Shown here: positions 17,188-25,163 of the stretch, in pieces
How the letters are laid out: every line of letters begins with the position of its first letter
Numbering within the stretch: the first letter of the stretch is position 1
Source of the DNA: Desulfobulbaceae bacterium
GTDB taxonomy: Bacteria > Desulfobacterota > Desulfobulbia > Desulfobulbales > Desulfocapsaceae
Length of the DNA stretch: 64,000 bases
Direction: 5' to 3'
Assembly (NCBI GenBank): GCA_011390165.1
Contig: JAABSV010000010.1
Span: 1-64,000 of the forward strand
Program-made: the position numbers and the translations under genes
Notes under the pieces: generated by a model
What the model saw: only the letters and a program-made list of their open reading frames with translations
The model's database searches: none
Told to the model about the DNA's origin: nothing

Positions 17188-18048
17188 ATGCAAACGGGGA
17201 AGGGCGTTGCTGGCAGCAGACGTCTGCTTCTTCTCCTTTTCCTCTTCCTGTCCCTGCTGACCGCAGTCGGCGACAGTGAGGGGGCCGGGCTGCTGGAGCA
17301 ATCGAAACAACAGCAGGCCGGTGTCGACAATCCGCGCTGGGTGGAAGAAAAACTCGGCGACTTTCTCCCCCTGGATCTCTTTTTTATCGACTCCCAAGGG
17401 GAGCAGGTGCAGTTGCGTGAGATCGTCGACCGGCCGACTATCATCCTTCCCGTTTACTTCTACTGTCCGGGTATCTGCAGCAAAAATCTGGCCAATCTGG
17501 CTATTGCCCTCAACAACCTCAAGTCTCAGCCAGGCCGGGACTATCGGGTCATCGCCCTCAGTTTCAACTCTGCCGAAGGGGCCGCTGATGCCGCCCGGGC
17601 GAAGCGTAATTATCTGAAAATTCTTGATGAAGGATTTCCGGCTGAACAGTGGCGCTTTCTCACCGGCAGCGAAGAGGCGATCAGGGCCGCCACCGATGCC
17701 CTCGGCTTTCGTTTTGAAAAGGTGGACGATGAGACATTCATCCATCCGGCTGCCCTGATCACCCTTGCCGCCGATGGCAAGATCATCCGCTATGTCTACG
17801 GCTCTTTTCTCGCCGGTGATATCGATGTTGGGCTTGCCGATGCGAGCAGCGGTCGACCTTCACTGTCGGTCAAACGTCTGCTCGATTTCTGCTTTAATTA
17901 CGATCCACGCCAGAATCAGTCTCTCTTTACCTGGGTGAAGGTTGTTGTCCTGGCGGTTTTTGCTGCAGCCCTCTCCTTTGTCCTCTTTTCTCTTAAAGGC
18001 AGGGGACGGCGGAGTTCCCCGCCGGCATCCCACAGGAAAGATTCATGA
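17188..18048 (+). CDS. SCO1/SenC-family copper chaperone
   Basis: A membrane-anchored thioredoxin-fold protein that helps build the CuA centre of cytochrome c oxidase subunit II. The 286 residues start with a basic and hydrophobic signal/anchor. The copper-binding CPGIC motif is in PVYFYCPGICSKNLAN and the distal histidine in DDETFIHPAAL. A second hydrophobic segment near the C-terminus (VKVVVLAVFAAALSFVLFSL) makes this a two-anchor form. It overlaps ctaD by four bases (ATGA), which couples its translation to the oxidase. Confidence 0.9.
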   Translation: MQTGKGVAGSRRLLLLLFLFLSLLTAVGDSEGAGLLEQSKQQQAGVDNPRWVEEKLGDFLPLDLFFIDSQGEQVQLREIVDRPTIILPVYFYCPGICSKNLANLAIALNNLKSQPGRDYRVIALSFNSAEGAADAARAKRNYLKILDEGFPAEQWRFLTGSEEAIRAATDALGFRFEKVDDETFIHPAALITLAADGKIIRYVYGSFLAGDIDVGLADASSGRPSLSVKRLLDFCFNYDPRQNQSLFTWVKVVVLAVFAAALSFVLFSLKGRGRRSSPPASHRKDS

Positions 18049-19676
18049 CAGCTCCCCAATCCTTCTACCATACCTCCTCCCCTGCCGGCCTTTCCGGTAT
18101 CCGGGCCTGGCTGTTGACTCACGACCACAAACGTCTTGGCCTGATGTATTTGGCCGCGGTCTTTTTCTGGTTTGTTCTAGCCATGGTTCTGGGCCTTCTG
18201 CTGCGCACCGAGCTGATGGGGCAGGGGCCGACCATCATGGGCCCGGAGGTGTACAACTCGATGTTCACCCTGCATGGGGTGATCATGATCTTTCTCTTTG
18301 TGATTCCTGCCATTCCAGCCATATTCGGCAATTTTTTTCTGCCCATCCAACTGGGTACCGACGATGTATTTTTCCCCCGTCTGAACCTGTTCAGCTGGTA
18401 CCTGTTCATGCTCGGTGGGCTTTTTGCCATTGTCGCCCTGTTTGCCGGCGACGGTTTTCCGGATACCGGCTGGACCTTTTATGTCCCCTTCAGCGTCGAG
18501 GTGGACAGCAATGTCGGTCTGACTGTTTCGGCGGCCTTTATTCTCGGCATGTCCTCCATGCTCACCGGCCTCAACTTCGTCACCACCTTCCATCGGATGC
18601 GCGACCGGAGCATGGGCCTGATGCAGATTCCGCTCTTCACCTGGTCACTCTACGCCACCGCCTGGGTGCAGATTCTCGCCACCCCGGTGATCTCCATCAC
18701 CTTCGTGCTGGTGATGGTGGAACGTATTCTCGGGGTCGGCCTCTTTGATCCGGACAAGGGAGGGGACCCGCTTCTTTACCAGCATCTCTTCTGGATGTAC
18801 TCCCATCCGGCGGTGTACATCATGATACTCCCCGGGATGGGGGTTATTTCAGAAATTATCCCGGTCTTTTCCCGCAAATCGATCTTTGGGTACAAGGCGA
18901 TCGTCTGGTCGTCAATGGGAATCGCCATTGCCGGTTCGCTGGTCTGGGCACACCACATGTACACCAGTGGCATGAGTGACGTGTCGGTCTTTGTTTTCTC
19001 GCTGCTCACCTTCCTGGTTGCCATCCCGTCGGCGGTGAAGGTTTTTTCCTGGGTGGCCACCATGTACCGCGGTGCCATTGAGATGACCCCACCCCTGCTG
19101 CTTGCCCTGATCTTTATCTACCTCTTTACCGTTGGCGGCCTGACCGGTCTGGTGCTGGGGGCGGTCGGCACCAATATCCATGTCCACGATACCCACTTCG
19201 TCGTCTCCCACTTCCACTTTGTGATGTTCGGCGGTACCGGTTTTGCCTTTTTTGCCGCCCTCCATTTCTGGTGGCCGAAGATGTTCGGGATCATGTACCG
19301 CTTCAAGCCGGCCTACATCGGCGCCAGTCTCACCGGCATCGGCTTTCTCTTTCACTATGTACCGATGCTCATTCTCGGTCTGCAGGGAATGCCCCGGCGA
19401 TACTACGATTACCTACCCCAGTATGAGACCGGTAATTTTCTTGCCGGCTTTGGTGGTTATCTCCTCTGTCTGGGGATCGTCATCATGTTCGTCAATCTCC
19501 TGATGAGTTTTCGACAGCAGCAGCCGGCCGGTGCCGACCCCTGGGGGGCGACCACCTTGGAGTGGAGCGTCCCTTCGCCACCGCCGCTGCATAACTTTGT
19601 CGCCCCGCCGGTGGTTGCCTCTTTCCCCTATGATTTTACCACGGTGGTGGAACGGGCCGGGAAGGGTGGTAGCTGA
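18045..19676 (+). CDS. ctaD: Cytochrome c oxidase subunit I (heme-copper oxidase, type A2)
   Basis: Catalytic oxygen-reducing subunit, 543 residues with about twelve membrane segments. A low-spin heme ligand is in TLHGVIMIF. The CuB/high-spin region contains YSHPAVYIMILPGMG, the HH pair is in VWAHHMYTSG, and heme ligands are in VVSHFHFVMFGG. The usual glutamate of HPEVY is absent (HPAVY) and is replaced by the preceding YS pair. This is the signature of the A2 subgroup. AGGAAAG precedes ATG 18045, and ctaE follows two bases after the stop. Electron donor and true oxygen affinity cannot be read from sequence. Confidence 0.95.
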   Translation: MTAPQSFYHTSSPAGLSGIRAWLLTHDHKRLGLMYLAAVFFWFVLAMVLGLLLRTELMGQGPTIMGPEVYNSMFTLHGVIMIFLFVIPAIPAIFGNFFLPIQLGTDDVFFPRLNLFSWYLFMLGGLFAIVALFAGDGFPDTGWTFYVPFSVEVDSNVGLTVSAAFILGMSSMLTGLNFVTTFHRMRDRSMGLMQIPLFTWSLYATAWVQILATPVISITFVLVMVERILGVGLFDPDKGGDPLLYQHLFWMYSHPAVYIMILPGMGVISEIIPVFSRKSIFGYKAIVWSSMGIAIAGSLVWAHHMYTSGMSDVSVFVFSLLTFLVAIPSAVKVFSWVATMYRGAIEMTPPLLLALIFIYLFTVGGLTGLVLGAVGTNIHVHDTHFVVSHFHFVMFGGTGFAFFAALHFWWPKMFGIMYRFKPAYIGASLTGIGFLFHYVPMLILGLQGMPRRYYDYLPQYETGNFLAGFGGYLLCLGIVIMFVNLLMSFRQQQPAGADPWGATTLEWSVPSPPPLHNFVAPPVVASFPYDFTTVVERAGKGGS

Positions 19677-19678
19677 GG

Positions 19679-20302
19679 ATGGCCAGCATGATTGCCCACA
19701 AGGAGAGCGGCGAGAGGATTGACCCGACCGGGATCAAGATCGGCATGTGGCTTTTCCTCTATTCGGAGATAATCCTCTTCGGTGGCCTCTTTGTTCTTTA
19801 TGCCGCCTATTTCCACCGCTATTCGGAGTCTTTTGCCGCCGGAGGCGAGGAGTTGGACAGGCTGATCGGTGCCGCCAATACTGTGGTTCTGCTGATCTCC
19901 AGCTTCACTGTCGCCGCCTCCATCACCGCCCTCCGCCTGCACCAGCGCCGGCGCTGCATCTGCCTGCTCCTCTTCTCTCTGCTCTGCGGGGTGATCTTTC
20001 TGGTAAACAAATATTTTGAGTGGGGGGCAAAGTTTGCCCGTGACCTCTATCCAGGCTCGGAGACTCTGGTCGGTGGTGAACCGGGACTAAACATCTTCTT
20101 CGGTCTCTACTATATCATAACCGGCCTGCATGGGATCCACGTGCTGATCGGCATGGTGCTGCTGACGGTCAGCCTGGTTTGGGTTGTCAGTGGCCGCGCC
20201 ACCGCCGAACGCTATTCGATGCTCGACAACTCCGGTCTCTACTGGCATCTGGTCGATCTGATCTGGATATTTGTCTTTCCCCTCTTTTATCTGGTGCTGT
20301 AA
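19679..20302 (+). CDS. ctaE: Cytochrome c oxidase subunit III
   Basis: A 207-residue membrane protein of the heme-copper oxidase subunit III family. GIKIGMWLFLYSEIILFGGLFVLYAAYF lies in the first membrane segment and GLHGIHVLIGMVLL in a later one. It ends with YWHLVDLIWIFVFPLFYLVL, matching the family C-terminus. About five membrane segments are visible, the short form without the first two helices of mitochondrial subunit III. It stabilises the catalytic core. It begins two bases after ctaD and is followed by the subunit IV gene. Confidence 0.93.
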   Translation: MASMIAHKESGERIDPTGIKIGMWLFLYSEIILFGGLFVLYAAYFHRYSESFAAGGEELDRLIGAANTVVLLISSFTVAASITALRLHQRRRCICLLLFSLLCGVIFLVNKYFEWGAKFARDLYPGSETLVGGEPGLNIFFGLYYIITGLHGIHVLIGMVLLTVSLVWVVSGRATAERYSMLDNSGLYWHLVDLIWIFVFPLFYLVL

Positions 20303-20335
20303 ACGGCCCGATGTTTTCGGGCGGTATTTTTTCCC

Positions 20336-20653
20336 ATGGAGCGTTTCGACGTGAGCAATCAAAGCCTGGAACAACAGCAACAGGAACATCTGCTCGGCTA
20401 CCGGCAACTGGCGGTTGTCCTCTGCCTGTTGTTGCTGTTGACCGTAGTAACGGTGGCTGTCTCCTATGTTGATCTCGGTTTTTTCAATGTACCGGTGGCG
20501 CTGGCCATAGCCTGCGGCAAGGTAAGCCTGGTGCTCCTGTTTTTCATGCATTTGAAATATGAAGGGGCGATCATCAACATCTCATTTCTCAGTACGGTGC
20601 TTTTTCTGGTGATCATGATCGGTTTCACCTTCTGGGATGTTGCCTTTCGCTAA
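20336..20653 (+). CDS. Cytochrome c oxidase subunit IV-like small membrane protein
   Basis: A 105-residue protein with three hydrophobic segments: RQLAVVLCLLLLLTVVTVAVSY, NVPVALAIACGKVSLVLLFFMHLKY, and a C-terminal segment ending TFWDVAFR. The KVSLVLLFFMHLKYE segment is typical of the prokaryotic subunit IV (COX4-like) family. These accessory subunits sit beside subunit III. It lies between ctaE and ctaC in the same operon. The ATG at 20336 is the likely start, although no strong binding site is seen. Confidence 0.85.
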   Translation: MERFDVSNQSLEQQQQEHLLGYRQLAVVLCLLLLLTVVTVAVSYVDLGFFNVPVALAIACGKVSLVLLFFMHLKYEGAIINISFLSTVLFLVIMIGFTFWDVAFR

Positions 20654-20692
20654 CCGCCATCATGGGAAGTTTCAGAGGAGTTGGAGAGGACA

Positions 20693-21280
20693 ATGACCGC
20701 AGTTCAAGGAGTTGATCAGGCGTACTGGTATATTCTTGGTATTTCCGTACTGTTGCTGCTGGCAATAACCGTGGTGATGGTCTATTTCGTTATCCGCTAC
20801 CGGCGCAGCCGCCACCCGGTTGCCGCCGACATCAGGGACAATTATAAACTGGAGATTGTCTGGACCATCATACCGACCCTGATCGCCCTGTCGATGTTCT
20901 ATGTCGGCTGGACATCCTACGTCGGCCTGCGCACAGTACCCGAAGATGCCATGGAGGTGGAGGTGATCGGCCAGATGTTTTCCTGGATCTTCGTCTATGA
21001 CAACGACAAGGAAAGCGAAAACGAACTGGTCGTGCCGCAGGGGCGGGCGATCAAGTTGAACATCAGTTCCATCGATGTTCTGCACAGTTTCTACCTGCCC
21101 GCCTTCCGGGTCAAGGTTGATGCCGTCAAGGGGATGCCCACCTATGCCTGGTTTTATGCCGACGAAGTAGGGGAGTATGATATCCAGTGCACTGAATACT
21201 GTGGTGTCGACCATTCGGCAATGGTTGGCACCATGCGGATCGTCCCGGCTGAGACCTTTGCCCTCTGGCTTGATGAATAG
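20693..21280 (+). CDS. ctaC: Cytochrome c oxidase subunit II
   Basis: The CuA-containing subunit that accepts electrons from cytochrome c. The 195 residues have two N-terminal membrane helices and then a periplasmic cupredoxin domain. The aromatic GQMFSWIFVYD and the CuA ligands are present: a histidine in DVLHSFYLP and the cluster C-x3-C-x3-H-x2-M in CTEYCGVDHSAM. There is no fused cytochrome c domain. I chose ATG 20693, behind GGAGAGGA, over an upstream TTG. It is unusual in being encoded after subunits I, III and IV. Its stop overlaps the ctaB start. Confidence 0.93.
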   Translation: MTAVQGVDQAYWYILGISVLLLLAITVVMVYFVIRYRRSRHPVAADIRDNYKLEIVWTIIPTLIALSMFYVGWTSYVGLRTVPEDAMEVEVIGQMFSWIFVYDNDKESENELVVPQGRAIKLNISSIDVLHSFYLPAFRVKVDAVKGMPTYAWFYADEVGEYDIQCTEYCGVDHSAMVGTMRIVPAETFALWLDE

Positions 21281-22184
21281 CCCGACCTTGTCGGGTGCGA
21301 TGCCGGCGAAGCGGCAGATGAGGCTCAGGCTGTGGCCGTGGCTTCGACTGGCCAAACCCGGCATCTGCCTGATGATCACGGTTGCCGCATTGTTCGGGGC
21401 GCTGCTTGCCGAGCCAGACATCTCGCTTCGTACCTTCCTGCTCGGTGCCGCTGTCCTCCTTCTTGCCGCCGGTGCCGCCACGCTGAACAGCCTTCAGGAG
21501 GATCGACTGGACAGCCGTATGCGTCGGACCAGCAGCCGACCCCTGCCGCAGAGAGAACTTTCCCGACGGCAGGCCCTCTACCAGGCCTTGTTCCTCCTGG
21601 GCCTTGGCATGGCGCTGCTCACGGCTCTTGCCGGCCGACCCGCCGCCAGCCTCGGTGGCCTTGCCGTATTCCTCTACAACGGCCTCTATACCCCGTTGAA
21701 GGGCAGGACGGTACTGGCCATCGTCCCCGGTGCCCTGAGTGGTGCCCTGCCGCCGTTGATCGGCTGGGTGGGGATGGGCGGGACACTTTTCTCCTATCCA
21801 GCCGCCCTGCTCGCCGCCCTGCTGGTGCTATGGCAGATTCCCCACTCCTGGCTGGTGCTGCTCAGCCACCGTCACGACTTCCACGATAATAAGCTGCCGA
21901 ATATTCTGGAAATGTTCGGTGAGACACGGGTTAAGGCCTTTTTCCTTCCCTGGTTGGTTGCCCTGGCCACGGTGATGTTCCTGCAGCTCAATCTTTTTGA
22001 CTTGCCGCTACGGGGTTGGCCGATCGGCGGGGTCGCTGCCAATGTCATTGTCCTCCTGCTGGTCTTTGCCCGACAACTTCCCCTGGTCGCTGACGGCAGC
22101 CGTTGCCGGTCACTTTTTGCCACCCTCAACCTCTCCCTGTTGGTGCACATGGCACTGATCGGCGCCAACCGCCTTTTCGCTTGA
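21273..22184 (+). CDS. ctaB: Protoheme IX farnesyltransferase (heme O synthase)
   Basis: Attaches farnesyl to heme b to make heme O, the precursor of heme A. It is a UbiA-family integral membrane protein of 303 residues. The prenyl-diphosphate motif is N-x3-ED-x2-D, continuing MRRT-x2-RPLP as in CtaB proteins. The second conserved region is around SHRHDFHDNKLPNILEMFGE. The start ATG 21273 overlaps the last codons of ctaC. Together with the oxidase genes it makes the operon self-sufficient for heme O. No heme A synthase (ctaA) is seen here, so an o-type heme use or a distant ctaA is possible. Confidence 0.93.
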   Translation: MNSPTLSGAMPAKRQMRLRLWPWLRLAKPGICLMITVAALFGALLAEPDISLRTFLLGAAVLLLAAGAATLNSLQEDRLDSRMRRTSSRPLPQRELSRRQALYQALFLLGLGMALLTALAGRPAASLGGLAVFLYNGLYTPLKGRTVLAIVPGALSGALPPLIGWVGMGGTLFSYPAALLAALLVLWQIPHSWLVLLSHRHDFHDNKLPNILEMFGETRVKAFFLPWLVALATVMFLQLNLFDLPLRGWPIGGVAANVIVLLLVFARQLPLVADGSRCRSLFATLNLSLLVHMALIGANRLFA

Positions 22185-22374: not shown

Positions 22375-22884
22375 ATGATTGCAAAGAAGATCAATACCGC
22401 CCTCAATGCCCAGGTCAATGCCGAGCTTTTTTCCGCCTATCTCTATATGTCCATGTCTGCCTGGTGCAGCCAGCGGAGTCTTTCCGGAATGGCCAACTGG
22501 ATGCGTTGTCAGGCTCAGGAAGAGCAGTTTCACGCCATGAAGATATACGATTATATTCTTGAAAGGGGTGGTCACATCTCTTTGGATGCCATCGAAAAGC
22601 CCAGTGCTGAATGGGACTCCCCCATTGCCCTGTTTGAGGAGACCGCCCGGCATGAGGCGAAGGTAACCGGTCTGATCAACGATCTGGTTTCCCTCTCCAT
22701 AAAGGAAAAGGACTACGCCGCCCATATATTTCTGCAGTGGTTTGTTACCGAGCAGGTCGAAGAGGAGGCGAGTGTCAGCGAGGTTCTGGAGCGGATGAAG
22801 ATGATCGGTGATGATTCAGCCGGGATGTTCGCCATGGATATGGAGTTGGCTAAGCGTCTCTTTACCCCACCGGTGGCGCCGTAG
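22375..22884 (+). CDS. ftn: Ferritin
   Basis: A non-heme bacterial ferritin of 169 residues that stores iron and detoxifies Fe2+ by oxidation inside a 24-subunit cage. A four-helix bundle is apparent, with ferroxidase ligands in NAELFSAYLYMSMS, the E-x2-H pair in QEEQFHAMKIYDY, and FVTEQVEEEASVSEVLERM. ATG 22375 has AAGGAGA upstream. It is separated by about 190 bp from ctaB and could have its own promoter. The probable selenoprotein and rubredoxin follow. Confidence 0.95.
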   Translation: MIAKKINTALNAQVNAELFSAYLYMSMSAWCSQRSLSGMANWMRCQAQEEQFHAMKIYDYILERGGHISLDAIEKPSAEWDSPIALFEETARHEAKVTGLINDLVSLSIKEKDYAAHIFLQWFVTEQVEEEASVSEVLERMKMIGDDSAGMFAMDMELAKRLFTPPVAP

Positions 22885-23051
22885 GGCTGATTGCCTCCCT
22901 GTTTTTAGGGCAGACCGGCCTGGGACTTGCCGGGAGGTGTATGCTGGGAATAAGCCGTGCCCTGCCGGGAAGAGTCTGGTTGACCTCGGTGGAGGTTGGC
23001 CCGGGAGTTTAGAGAACCAAGGAAAAGATGTGGAAAAGAGAGGAGCTGAGC

Positions 23052-23390
23052 ATGCGGATTACCCAGGCATACATGCGTAAGGGCTGAGTCTCCTGCCAGA
23101 AGGCCTGGAAGGCCTTGGCCGGAGGAAACCACGTCATTGCCGCCGAAATCGATGCCAGAAAAGAGGTCTATACCGGCGATTCGGCTTGGCAATTGGTTGC
23201 TGCTGCGGAAAAAGTGGTTGTCGCCAGCGGCAAAAAAGTTCTCGAATTTGCACCGGCCACCGACGGCCGTGACACCATCCTGCCGGAGATTACCGGCCGA
23301 ACCGGTAATCTCCGCGCTCCGGCGGTGCAGGTGGGGAAGGTGTGGTACATCGGTTTCAATCAGGAGATGTACCAGCAGATCTTCGCGTGA
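23052..23390 (+). CDS. Probable selenoprotein, thioredoxin/ArsC-like, Sec at residue 12 (UGA 23085-23087)
   Basis: A 112-residue frame is interrupted only by one TGA at 23085-23087. Reading it as selenocysteine gives MRITQAYMRKG-U-VSC-QKAWKAL, a UxxC redox motif at the start of a helix after a short strand, as in thioredoxin-fold and ArsC-like proteins. The rest (NHVIAAEIDARKE, then GRTGNLRAPAVQVGKVWYIGF near the C-terminus) fits that fold, including the cis-proline-like RAPAV. A strong AGGAG lies six bases before ATG 23052. An in-frame ATG at 23028 is an alternative. A hairpin of bSECIS type begins three bases after the UGA. Without Sec, only a headless 91-residue frame beginning at TTG 23115 remains. 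Substrate is unknown; context suggests redox or oxidative-stress work. Confidence 0.8.
23090..23124 (+). promoter_or_regulatory. Candidate bacterial SECIS hairpin
   Basis: Just downstream of the UGA, CTCC (23090-23093) pairs with GGAG (23121-23124) and GCC (23095-23097) with GGC (23117-23119). AAGGCCT (23100-23106) pairs with AGGCCTT (23110-23116). The apical loop contains GG (23107-23108), 19 bases after the UGA, within the spacing known for SelB-dependent elements. The structure lies inside the coding frame, as bacterial SECIS elements do. Confidence 0.7.
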
Positions 23391-23500: not shown

Positions 23501-23659
23501 TCAGTCAGCCTTCCAGAACGCTGATTTTTCGGCACCACACAGAGGGCAGCACCAGTTCTCGGGAAGATCTTCCCAGGCGGTTCCCGCTGCCACGCCATTG
23601 CCTTCATCACCAATTTCCGGATCGTAGATATAGCCGCATGGACATTCCATTTTCTGCAT
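23501..23659 (-). CDS. Rubredoxin with CxC first half-site
   Basis: A 52-residue electron carrier. It has [10 protein letters not shown], the central [13 protein letters not shown], and the second half-site [11 protein letters not shown]. Iron ligands would be C6, C8, C38 and C41. The first pair is spaced CPCG (one residue between cysteines) instead of the usual CxxCG, while the rest matches standard rubredoxins. AAGGAG precedes ATG 23659. It could pass electrons to desulfoferrodoxin (15558) or other reductases. It was too short for automatic frame listing and lies in a different frame from a longer spurious one. Confidence 0.93.
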
Positions 23660-23759: not shown

Positions 23760-25163
23760 TCATTGCCCCTCCCGAGCGAGAATATCCTTGCAGGGGATCA
23801 GTGCCGTGGCGGTGGCCGAGACGATATTGCCGGCAACCCCGGGGCCATCACCGGCAACGTACAGGCCGCTCACTGCGGTCTGGAGGTTGCGGTCGGTGGC
23901 CACCTGGGTGGCAAAGAACTTTATTTCCGGGGCGTAGAGCAGGGTCTCGTCATTGGCTACCCCGGGGATCACCTGATTGAGCTGATCTAGGCCATCGACC
24001 AGGTTGGTGAGAATCCTTTCCGGCAGGGCCATGGCAATGTCACCACAGGTGACACTCTTCAGGGTCGGTTCGATATAGCTGTTGTGCACCCTGTTCCAGG
24101 TGGAGCGACGTCCTCTTTTCAGGTCGCCATAGCGCTGGAGGATCGGTTTACCGCCGCCAATCAGGGTGGCCAGTTTGCCGATCGATTCGCCGTAGGCCTG
24201 ATTGTCTTCCACCGGGTCGGTGAGGACAACCTTGGAGAGAAAGGCGAAGTTGGTGTTGTCGGATTTTTTGTCCATATAGGCATGGCCGTTGACACAGACG
24301 AAGTTCTGGTAGTTTTCCAGCGCCACATAGCCCCCGAAATTGGTGCAGAAGGTGCGGGTCTGGTCGTCGTACTTGCTGGTACGGACAAAAAAGGTCGGGT
24401 CGTAGATCACCTCGCAGAGGTCCTGCATGATCTCATTGTGCACCTCCACCCGGACCCCGACCTCAATCCCCCGCTGGGAGACCTCGATGCCGTGTTCCCG
24501 GGCGACGTTGGCCACCCACTCCGCCCCCACCCGGCCGGGGGCGAGGATGACGAACCGGGCATTGTACGTTGCCCGGTTGGTTTTCACCCCAACCACCATG
24601 CCCTTTTCAACCAGCACTTCTTTGGCCTCTTCCGAGTGGTGGAAGGTCACCCCGTGGTCGGCGACGTAGTCCGCCATTTTGCTGATATGGCCGGGCAGAT
24701 TATCGCTGCCGAGGTGTTTCTGGCGGATGATCAGCAGATCGATCCCCTGTTTGCGGGCCTCCTTGCGGATGGTGTGGGCCTGCTCCAGATCGGTGGGAAA
24801 AACCTTGCCGTCCATATGGAAACGGTTGAAAATCGCCTCGGTCTCGTCGATCAGGGCCATTGCTTCGGAGACCTCGAGAAACTGAGTCAGATCCGTTTTC
24901 CCCAGTTTATGGATGAAGTTCAACTTGCCGTCGGAGAAGAGCCCGGCCCCACCAATCCCACAGAGGATGTTACAGGGCCGGCACTTGATACAGCCGCCAT
25001 TCTTGATCGGGCACTGCCGCTTCAACGAGGCCTTGCCCTTTTCGAGCACCAGAACCTTCAGCCGCGAATGTTCGGCGAGATAATAGGCGGCAAAGAGCCC
25101 GGCGGGGCCGCCGCCGACGATGATCACGTCATAGGTTGTGGTGGACGGGCCTGCAGCGGGCAT
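23760..25163 (-). CDS. FAD-dependent dehydrogenase of unknown substrate
   Basis: A 467-residue flavoprotein of the uncharacterised FAD-dependent dehydrogenase type (COG2509-like). The N-terminal FAD-binding motif GGGPAGLFAAYYL is followed by ALVLEKG-type spacing. A cysteine-rich segment CPIKNGGCIKCRPCNILCG (about 50-68) comes next, then GGAGLFSDGKLN. The C-terminal FAD segment is SGLYVAGDGPGVAGNIVSA. The cysteine cluster is typical of the family and may bind metal or mediate redox. Its product and partners are unknown. Proximity to rubredoxin suggests but does not prove a redox link. Confidence 0.82.
   Translation of the reverse strand: MPAAGPSTTTYDVIIVGGGPAGLFAAYYLAEHSRLKVLVLEKGKASLKRQCPIKNGGCIKCRPCNILCGIGGAGLFSDGKLNFIHKLGKTDLTQFLEVSEAMALIDETEAIFNRFHMDGKVFPTDLEQAHTIRKEARKQGIDLLIIRQKHLGSDNLPGHISKMADYVADHGVTFHHSEEAKEVLVEKGMVVGVKTNRATYNARFVILAPGRVGAEWVANVAREHGIEVSQRGIEVGVRVEVHNEIMQDLCEVIYDPTFFVRTSKYDDQTRTFCTNFGGYVALENYQNFVCVNGHAYMDKKSDNTNFAFLSKVVLTDPVEDNQAYGESIGKLATLIGGGKPILQRYGDLKRGRRSTWNRVHNSYIEPTLKSVTCGDIAMALPERILTNLVDGLDQLNQVIPGVANDETLLYAPEIKFFATQVATDRNLQTAVSGLYVAGDGPGVAGNIVSATATALIPCKDILAREGQ

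Follow-up and report, generated by a model that had tools for sequence, protein, structure and literature searches.

A UGA-interrupted gene of a Desulfobulbaceae bacterium as a likely selenoprotein of the ArsC-like UxxC family NF041106

Selenoproteins that resemble ArsC have been catalogued more than once. ArsC-like selenoproteins were reported in Desulfotalea psychrophila, with a distant one in Desulfuromonas acetoxidans (PMC1794560), and an arsenate reductase with a UxxS motif has been described (PMC1088965). A 2008 survey listed "Arsenate reductase 2," filed under cd03032, with a UxxC motif and 42 sequences (PMC2398784), and two reviews list an "Arsenate reductase-like protein" with UxxC (PMC9312934 and PMC13188914), the latter together with the model NF041106. 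In the sections of both reviews covered here, the family is listed as "arsenate reductase-like," with no function assigned. PMC13188914 also contains two rhodanese selenoproteins with UxxG, a motif seen in the downstream genes described below, and selenocysteine (Sec) in a rhodanese is already known from it. The word rubrerythrin is absent from the sections of that review covered here, and the words rhodanese and rubrerythrin are both absent from PMC12013277. Moreover, among the papers listed by a literature search, none dealt, by its title or abstract opening, with what the UxxC family does or with a selenoprotein that joins rhodanese and rubrerythrin. What is added here is a hypothesis of function based on gene neighborhood and a second UGA-containing gene that lies beside the seleno-ArsC gene in relatives.

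The window, by which we mean the whole 64,000-nucleotide stretch of DNA that was analyzed, contains a 113-codon frame that begins at ATG 23052, ends at the stop codon 23388-23390 and, with UGA read as Sec, opens with MRITQAYMRKGUVSC (Table 1). An AGGAG lies 6 bases ahead of the ATG. Under translation table 11 the longest open reading frame in this frame is 23115-23390, with a TTG start, and it is the only one listed. The first-pass annotation had proposed a single gene interrupted by UGA at codon 12, within UVSC and behind a well-placed AGGAG, of which standard gene callers would leave the part after the UGA; frame, codon position and homologues that span the UGA all agree with it. A promoter scan found no match, with 0.1 expected by chance. 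The 3' half of the gene contains a perfect inverted repeat at 23284-23314, with 12-base arms (13 including a flanking C/G), over which Rfam matches were at chance level only.

With Cys put for Sec12, residues 6-107 of the protein scored 100.4 bits against the NCBIfam model NF041106 ("ArsC family (seleno)protein," ArsC_rel_Se_1), the curated cutoff of which is 85 bits, and the UxxC or CxxC motif that defines the model is present as UVSC. The window protein is like other members in its score over the cutoff, its UxxC, its length and a GRTGNLRAP-like block, but most members read DWAY where it reads TQAY, with Q in place of W5, and it sits on a long terminal branch (0.76). We conclude that the gene is a new member of an already catalogued family and not a new family. 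The first-pass annotation called it a new or little-studied UxxC selenoprotein; "little-studied" stands, and "new" gives way to the curated model, the two reviews and the 2008 survey. Our overall reading, to which we give a probability of roughly 0.8, is that SelB reads the UGA and that the product is an NF041106 selenoprotein acting as a thiol oxidoreductase of the Spx/ArsC/glutaredoxin kind.

Table 1. Positions of features in the window and at related loci (L numbers are our handles for loci)
Feature	Position	Strand	Basis
Predicted Sec-containing gene, NF041106 member, 112 residues	23052..23390	+	TGA=U translation, NF041106 score, homologues spanning UGA
AGGAG, ribosome-binding-site-like	23041..23045	+	direct sequence reading
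Codon 12, a UGA predicted to encode the Sec of UVSC	23085..23087	+	UGA in 77/80 loci, TGC/TGT in 3
Cys15, second UxxC residue	23094..23096	+	Cys in 81/81 sequences
Bacterial SECIS-like hairpin within coding sequence	23089..23125	+	fold; 74/78 Sec genes pass vs 23.8 expected
Ferritin gene, directly upstream	22375..22884	+	NF007638 128.3 bits, under cutoff 178
SCO1-like, cytochrome c oxidase and heme o synthase genes, upstream	17188..22184	+	CoxB over cutoff
Rubredoxin gene, convergent	23501..23659	-	NF045768 72.1 bits, under cutoff 90; translation
FAD-dependent protein gene, convergent	23760..25163	-	clusters with L082:1457-2863, matching FAD/NAD-binding Pfam families
Rhodanese-rubrerythrin UGA gene	L146 8336-9157	+	in-frame UGA at rhodanese active-site Cys
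Rhodanese-rubrerythrin UGA gene	L144 8336-9148	+	in-frame UGA at rhodanese active-site Cys
Rhodanese-rubrerythrin UGA gene	L150 1811-2623	+	in-frame UGA at rhodanese active-site Cys
Rhodanese-rubrerythrin UGA gene	L130 8336-9139	+	in-frame UGA at rhodanese active-site Cys
Rhodanese-rubrerythrin UGA genes, further loci	L175-L183, L185-L189		VYU[RHA]SG or VYUAxG
Spx/MgsR-like TGA gene	L153 2608-2910	+	
Spx/MgsR-like TGA gene	L154 2504-2794	-	
Spx/MgsR-like TGA gene	L155 134-424	+	
Spx/MgsR-like TGA gene	L156 2528-2800	+	
Spx/MgsR-like TGA gene	L157 2514-2798	+	

What kind of protein the gene encodes is indicated by fold and profile. An AlphaFold2 model built from 21 sequences (mean pLDDT 92.8) places U12 immediately ahead of a helix at 13-23. 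The nearest solved relative is Spx, both by profile (E 1.7e-5) and by fold (6ghb_A, E 6.1e-4, TM 0.56/0.54, rmsd 6.6, a moderate likeness), followed by NrdH-like and ArsC-related proteins; a PDB search with the single sequence gave nothing useful, and a profile was needed. Spx (PDB 1z3e, 3gfk and 6ghb) shares the fold class, R-x-P and VGYN-like blocks and the place of the CxxC, its C10-C13 aligning with UxxC. Moreover, cd03032, the domain named above, is one that we take to be ArsC_Spx. An Spx-like, redox-sensing regulator of transcription that binds RNA polymerase alpha and carries an Se-S switch would fit this kinship, but we consider it improbable. Gly52 of Spx and its loop are needed for binding RNA polymerase alpha, whereas nothing in the family profile corresponds to residues 48-51 of Spx, and among 81 members (the window and the best 80 of at least 542 candidates confirmed in a scan of named genomes) the column opposite Gly52 holds Gly in 14, with Ala in the window protein, and the column opposite Arg60 holds Arg in 21. 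The family is also shorter than Spx and has Sec for its first Cys, and the window protein matched neither Spx model, NF002459 or TIGR01617, at E 1 or better. Glutaredoxin and NrdH likewise have a thioredoxin-type fold and place UxxC or CxxC at helix 1; the family is longer, and the Pfam glutaredoxin model matches it weakly (13 of 21 members; best E 0.0014). In our reading, the family consists of seleno-redoxins within the Spx/ArsC/glutaredoxin superfamily. The model match, the position of U12 and the Spx alignment bear out the earlier description of a thioredoxin/ArsC-type protein with UVSC at the place of the catalytic CxxC.

Two other activities were weighed against a redoxin. Sec12 and Cys15 might bind a metal or metalloid, making the protein a chaperone or detoxification factor, and this we hold to be about as improbable as the Spx-like regulator. 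The window has SCO1-like and Cox genes upstream of the gene, a hint of copper traffic, and some other small selenoproteins have been proposed as metal binders in the sections of PMC13188914 covered here, but COX1-4 are infrequent neighbors, each found within 3 kb at just 6 to 11 of the 81 loci (COX2 in 11, COX3 in 10, COX4 in 9 and COX1 in 6), and U12 occupies the place of a redoxin's catalytic Cys. A true arsenate reductase with Sec for the catalytic Cys is somewhat less probable still. The catalogue names point that way, as does a distant kinship through PF03960, which matches the window protein weakly (E 0.092) and reaches E 0.1 or better in 12 of 21 members; Cys12 of ArsC aligns with Sec12, and an ArsP-type permease, one among the neighbor proteins scanned, lies beside a single locus (L093). 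ArsC needs three active-site arginines (R60, R94 and R107 of plasmid ArsC), but only R9 and R88 are invariant arginines in the 81 members, in a MAFFT alignment that put ArsC out of register past the active site. Furthermore, at E 1 or better the window protein had no match to the arsC equivalog TIGR00014, comparing the family profile with E. coli ArsC gave no usable similarity and there was no significant direct match, and no arsenic-pump family was found among the 20 recurrent neighbor clusters scanned (19 with a Pfam match). Finally, the published Sec-containing arsenate reductase 1, in the text covered here, has UxxS and not the UxxC of this family.

The seleno-redoxin reading depends on translation through the UGA, and homologues with Sec and with Cys both align across it, as the first-pass annotation had proposed to check. 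Codon 12 is TGA in 77, TGC in 1 and TGT in 2 of the 80 named loci, the best of at least 542; of the two search patterns one was written with Cys, and that pattern could bias only towards Cys forms. Records from Anaerolineales, Poribacteria and Calditrichaeota are among these 80, each with TGA. In the other samples, which overlap, the family was matched in 39 of 57 related genomes, counting the window's own, with exactly one TGA in all 39 matches; in 168 of 257 genomes of the class, 165 above the NF041106 cutoff, with five lacking a stop among the matches listed (G241-G245, one genus); and in 36 of 395 genomes sampled from the phylum (own included). All 28 phylum matches above the cutoff contain one TGA, and the 8 below it contain one in 5 cases and none in 3. 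Y7, R9, U/C12, S14, C15, R88, P90 and G101 are invariant in 81 of 81 sequences. Because Y7 and R9 precede the UGA, the part before it is real protein, and the homologues begin ahead of the UGA and not at the TTG beyond it, a start that the annotation had raised as a possibility. That the UGA is a true stop, leaving a pseudogene or a shorter protein from TTG 23115, is hardly tenable: the longest table 11 frame does begin there, but the constancy of Y7 and R9, UGA or Cys at the codon in 80 of 80 loci and selection on the hairpin downstream speak against it.

The hairpin itself had been predicted with GG in its loop, 19 bases after the UGA. Refolding gave a minimum-free-energy stem (-22.4 kcal/mol) with apical loop GGA at 23107-23109 and the same spacing of 19 bases from the UGA to the first G of the loop. 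Its z score was -2.59 against dinucleotide shuffles. When synonymous codons were shuffled within the gene, a procedure that assumes them to be otherwise free, z was -2.21, and two of five control windows came near it at -1.74 and -2.11; the family-wide test therefore carries the weight. Across 78 Sec genes, the mean energy z for offsets 12-38 from U was -1.58, compared with +0.12, -0.29, +0.19, -0.33 and -0.21 for five control windows, and z fell below -1.5 in 47% of Sec genes versus 12% of control windows. When G was required in the first two positions of the loop, 74 of the 78 had such a hairpin, where synonymous shuffles expect 23.8, by thresholds set after folds had been inspected and in related sequences, the counts of which are not independent. 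None of three Cys genes passed, but the shuffles give them 0.01, 0.71 and 0.42, only about 1.1 in sum, and thus the Cys control is weak. The loop starts at offsets from 20 to 26, such that its register shifts along an unchanging protein; with hairpins in different registers, RNAalifold on the 78 sequences found no shared structure, and the shuffle tests were used instead. Rfam gave three matches near the window gene, all far under their gathering scores. Judged by these sequence comparisons, the hairpin is conserved across the family beyond its coding role. A loop-start G that is kept as the register slides over a fixed protein would be a clean overlap of coding and recoding constraints.

Machinery for Sec is present in the genome (3.59 Mb in 108 contigs, 90.9% complete), with matches to selA (527.6 bits), selB (76.4 bits) and selD (372.4 bits, with a TGA of its own). 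A tRNA-Sec was matched by Rfam, unspecific on its own as 14 of 14 controls match too, and confirmed by ARAGORN. Thus, all four genes that the first-pass annotation named for checking, selA, selB, selC and selD, were found. SelB also occurs in 10 of 11 genomes checked that lack the family, and absence of the family is therefore not explained by missing Sec machinery. Cys rows L069, L081, L097 and L103 form one group with the Sec row L029 (support 100/99), in an unrooted tree of 83 rows and few columns that does not give the direction of exchange. We note that L081, L097 and L103 are likewise forms without UGA that group with this Sec relative. The five genomes G241-G245 keep SelB, and Cys was read in two of them (L049 and L069). 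Cys can thus stand in for Sec, and on the unrooted tree Sec has probably been replaced by Cys without loss of the Sec machinery. A Sec/Cys swap within one Sec-decoding genus offers a natural pair for asking what selenium brings.

What the protein does may be reflected in its neighbors. On the forward strand of the window, a SCO1-like gene, cox genes, cyoE, ferritin and the seleno-gene follow one another, and rubredoxin, the FAD protein and recA lie on the opposite strand; ferritin and rubredoxin are thus where the first-pass annotation put them. CoxA and heme o synthase match below their cutoffs and the SCO1-like protein had no NCBIfam match, and these genes share clusters with SCO1, COX1-4 and UbiA of relatives. 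The oxidase genes sit in a genome whose relatives bear sulfate-reducer names. The first motif of the rubredoxin is CPCG (C-x-C), where C-x-x-C is usual; a rubredoxin motif scan that scored 0 of 81 loci missed this protein and is uninformative on rubredoxin neighbors.

Flanking open reading frames were clustered for the 81 loci, of which 65 have a full 3 kb upstream and 62 a full 3 kb downstream, and cluster representatives were named by Pfam and NCBIfam. Within 3 kb, ferritin was found at 12 loci (upstream, window included), heme o synthase at 13, peroxiredoxin at 10, rubrerythrin or rhodanese-rubrerythrin at 15 and a pyridine-nucleotide flavoprotein at 7, along with a bioF-like aminotransferase (17), BioG (13), ComM (8), RadA (8), RecA (14) and the FAD protein (16). 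At L143, L146 and L150, flavoprotein, seleno-gene, rubrerythrin and peroxiredoxin are consecutive on one strand, and the flavoprotein resembles TIGR03169 (254 bits; cutoff 310). Twenty of the 81 loci have none of the 16 named recurrent clusters, and 20 proteins scanned, 19 of them from 15 loci whose neighbors were listed (13 of those 20 loci included) and one from L146, were mostly unrelated, e.g., gyrase A, GlnE and HPPK, which weakens the case for a universal role. Some lineages thus have rubrerythrin, peroxiredoxin, ferritin or oxidase genes as neighbors, and others have biotin or housekeeping genes.

The rubrerythrin neighbor carries a UGA of its own in some relatives. The called rubrerythrin frame starts between +323 and +338, just where the seleno-gene ends, at 10 of the 15 loci that have one, and at L130, L144, L146 and L150 clustering without UGA read-through had called only the rubrerythrin half of a longer rhodanese-rubrerythrin gene. 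At the rhodanese site these four and L110 read VYUHSGVRS or VYURSGVRS (VYURSGMRS in L110), and L143 and L116 read VYCHSGVRS. The L146 protein, searched against the class, had matches in 239 of 257 genomes, and many of these were to plain relatives of rhodanese or rubrerythrin. Match positions compared side by side and by eye place the rhodanese-rubrerythrin gene immediately after the seleno-ArsC gene, on its strand, in at least 21 genomes; the gap between matches is within about 30 bases in 20 of them and about 100 in G253, and the downstream gene has a TGA in 10 and none in 11. Wherever such a TGA was inspected, it stood at the rhodanese Cys. The site is UGA in 28 and Cys in 9 of 37 loci inspected, several of them the same place under two numbers, a ratio without meaning since the loci were picked to hold TGA forms. 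Eighteen of the 28 are of the VYU[RHA]SG kind and 10 are VYUAxG, mostly more distant in sequence. All 18 VYU[RHA]SG forms passed the hairpin test, for which shuffling, feasible in 17 of them, predicts 8.7, and 4 of the 9 Cys forms passed, with 3.5 expected. No NCBIfam model passed its cutoff in nine rhodanese-rubrerythrin proteins scanned. The window genome has a Cys-form rhodanese-rubrerythrin gene elsewhere (G000:C53, L184), not adjoining the window gene.

How the window protein would act can be put together from these parts. SelB and Sec-tRNA would translate codon 12, directed by the hairpin just past the UGA, to give a 112-residue NF041106 selenoprotein with a predicted thioredoxin-type fold. 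Sec12, just ahead of helix 1, would be the attacking selenolate, Cys15 would close a selenylsulfide with it, and thioredoxin, glutaredoxin or a flavoprotein might reduce the bond again, the net action being that of a fast selenylsulfide thiol oxidoreductase. Such an activity is likely as a prediction. A role in defense against O2 or peroxide, or in sulfur-redox defense, is suggested by the neighbors and is put forward tentatively; the rhodanese-rubrerythrin gene directly downstream, UGA bearing in some relatives, supports such a role and does not prove it. The redox or peroxide role that the first-pass annotation drew from the neighbors stays a hint, somewhat strengthened by these relatives and tempered by the inconstancy of the neighborhood. 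More speculatively, NF041106 could be the redoxin of a two-selenoprotein module for peroxide or sulfur-redox defense, passing electrons from a pyridine-nucleotide flavoprotein to a rhodanese-rubrerythrin fusion with Sec at its rhodanese active site; in the group to which the window belongs, it would work alongside cytochrome oxidase and ferritin. In Desulfocapsa-like genomes the order is flavoprotein, seleno-ArsC, seleno-rhodanese-rubrerythrin and peroxiredoxin. Adjacency to rhodanese-rubrerythrin genes, some with UGA, and elsewhere to ferritin or oxidase genes makes the function of the family testable.

Finally, we note that the phylum also contains a second, Spx/MgsR-like group, in which 5 of 5 genes examined have an in-frame TGA, placed at UTTC or USTC (Table 1). 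Its best NCBIfam match is TIGR01617 at 62 to 77 bits (cutoff 75, passed by L154 alone), and it falls below the cutoff of NF041106. Possibly, this group corresponds to the "distant ArsC homolog" mentioned in the part of PMC1794560 covered here.
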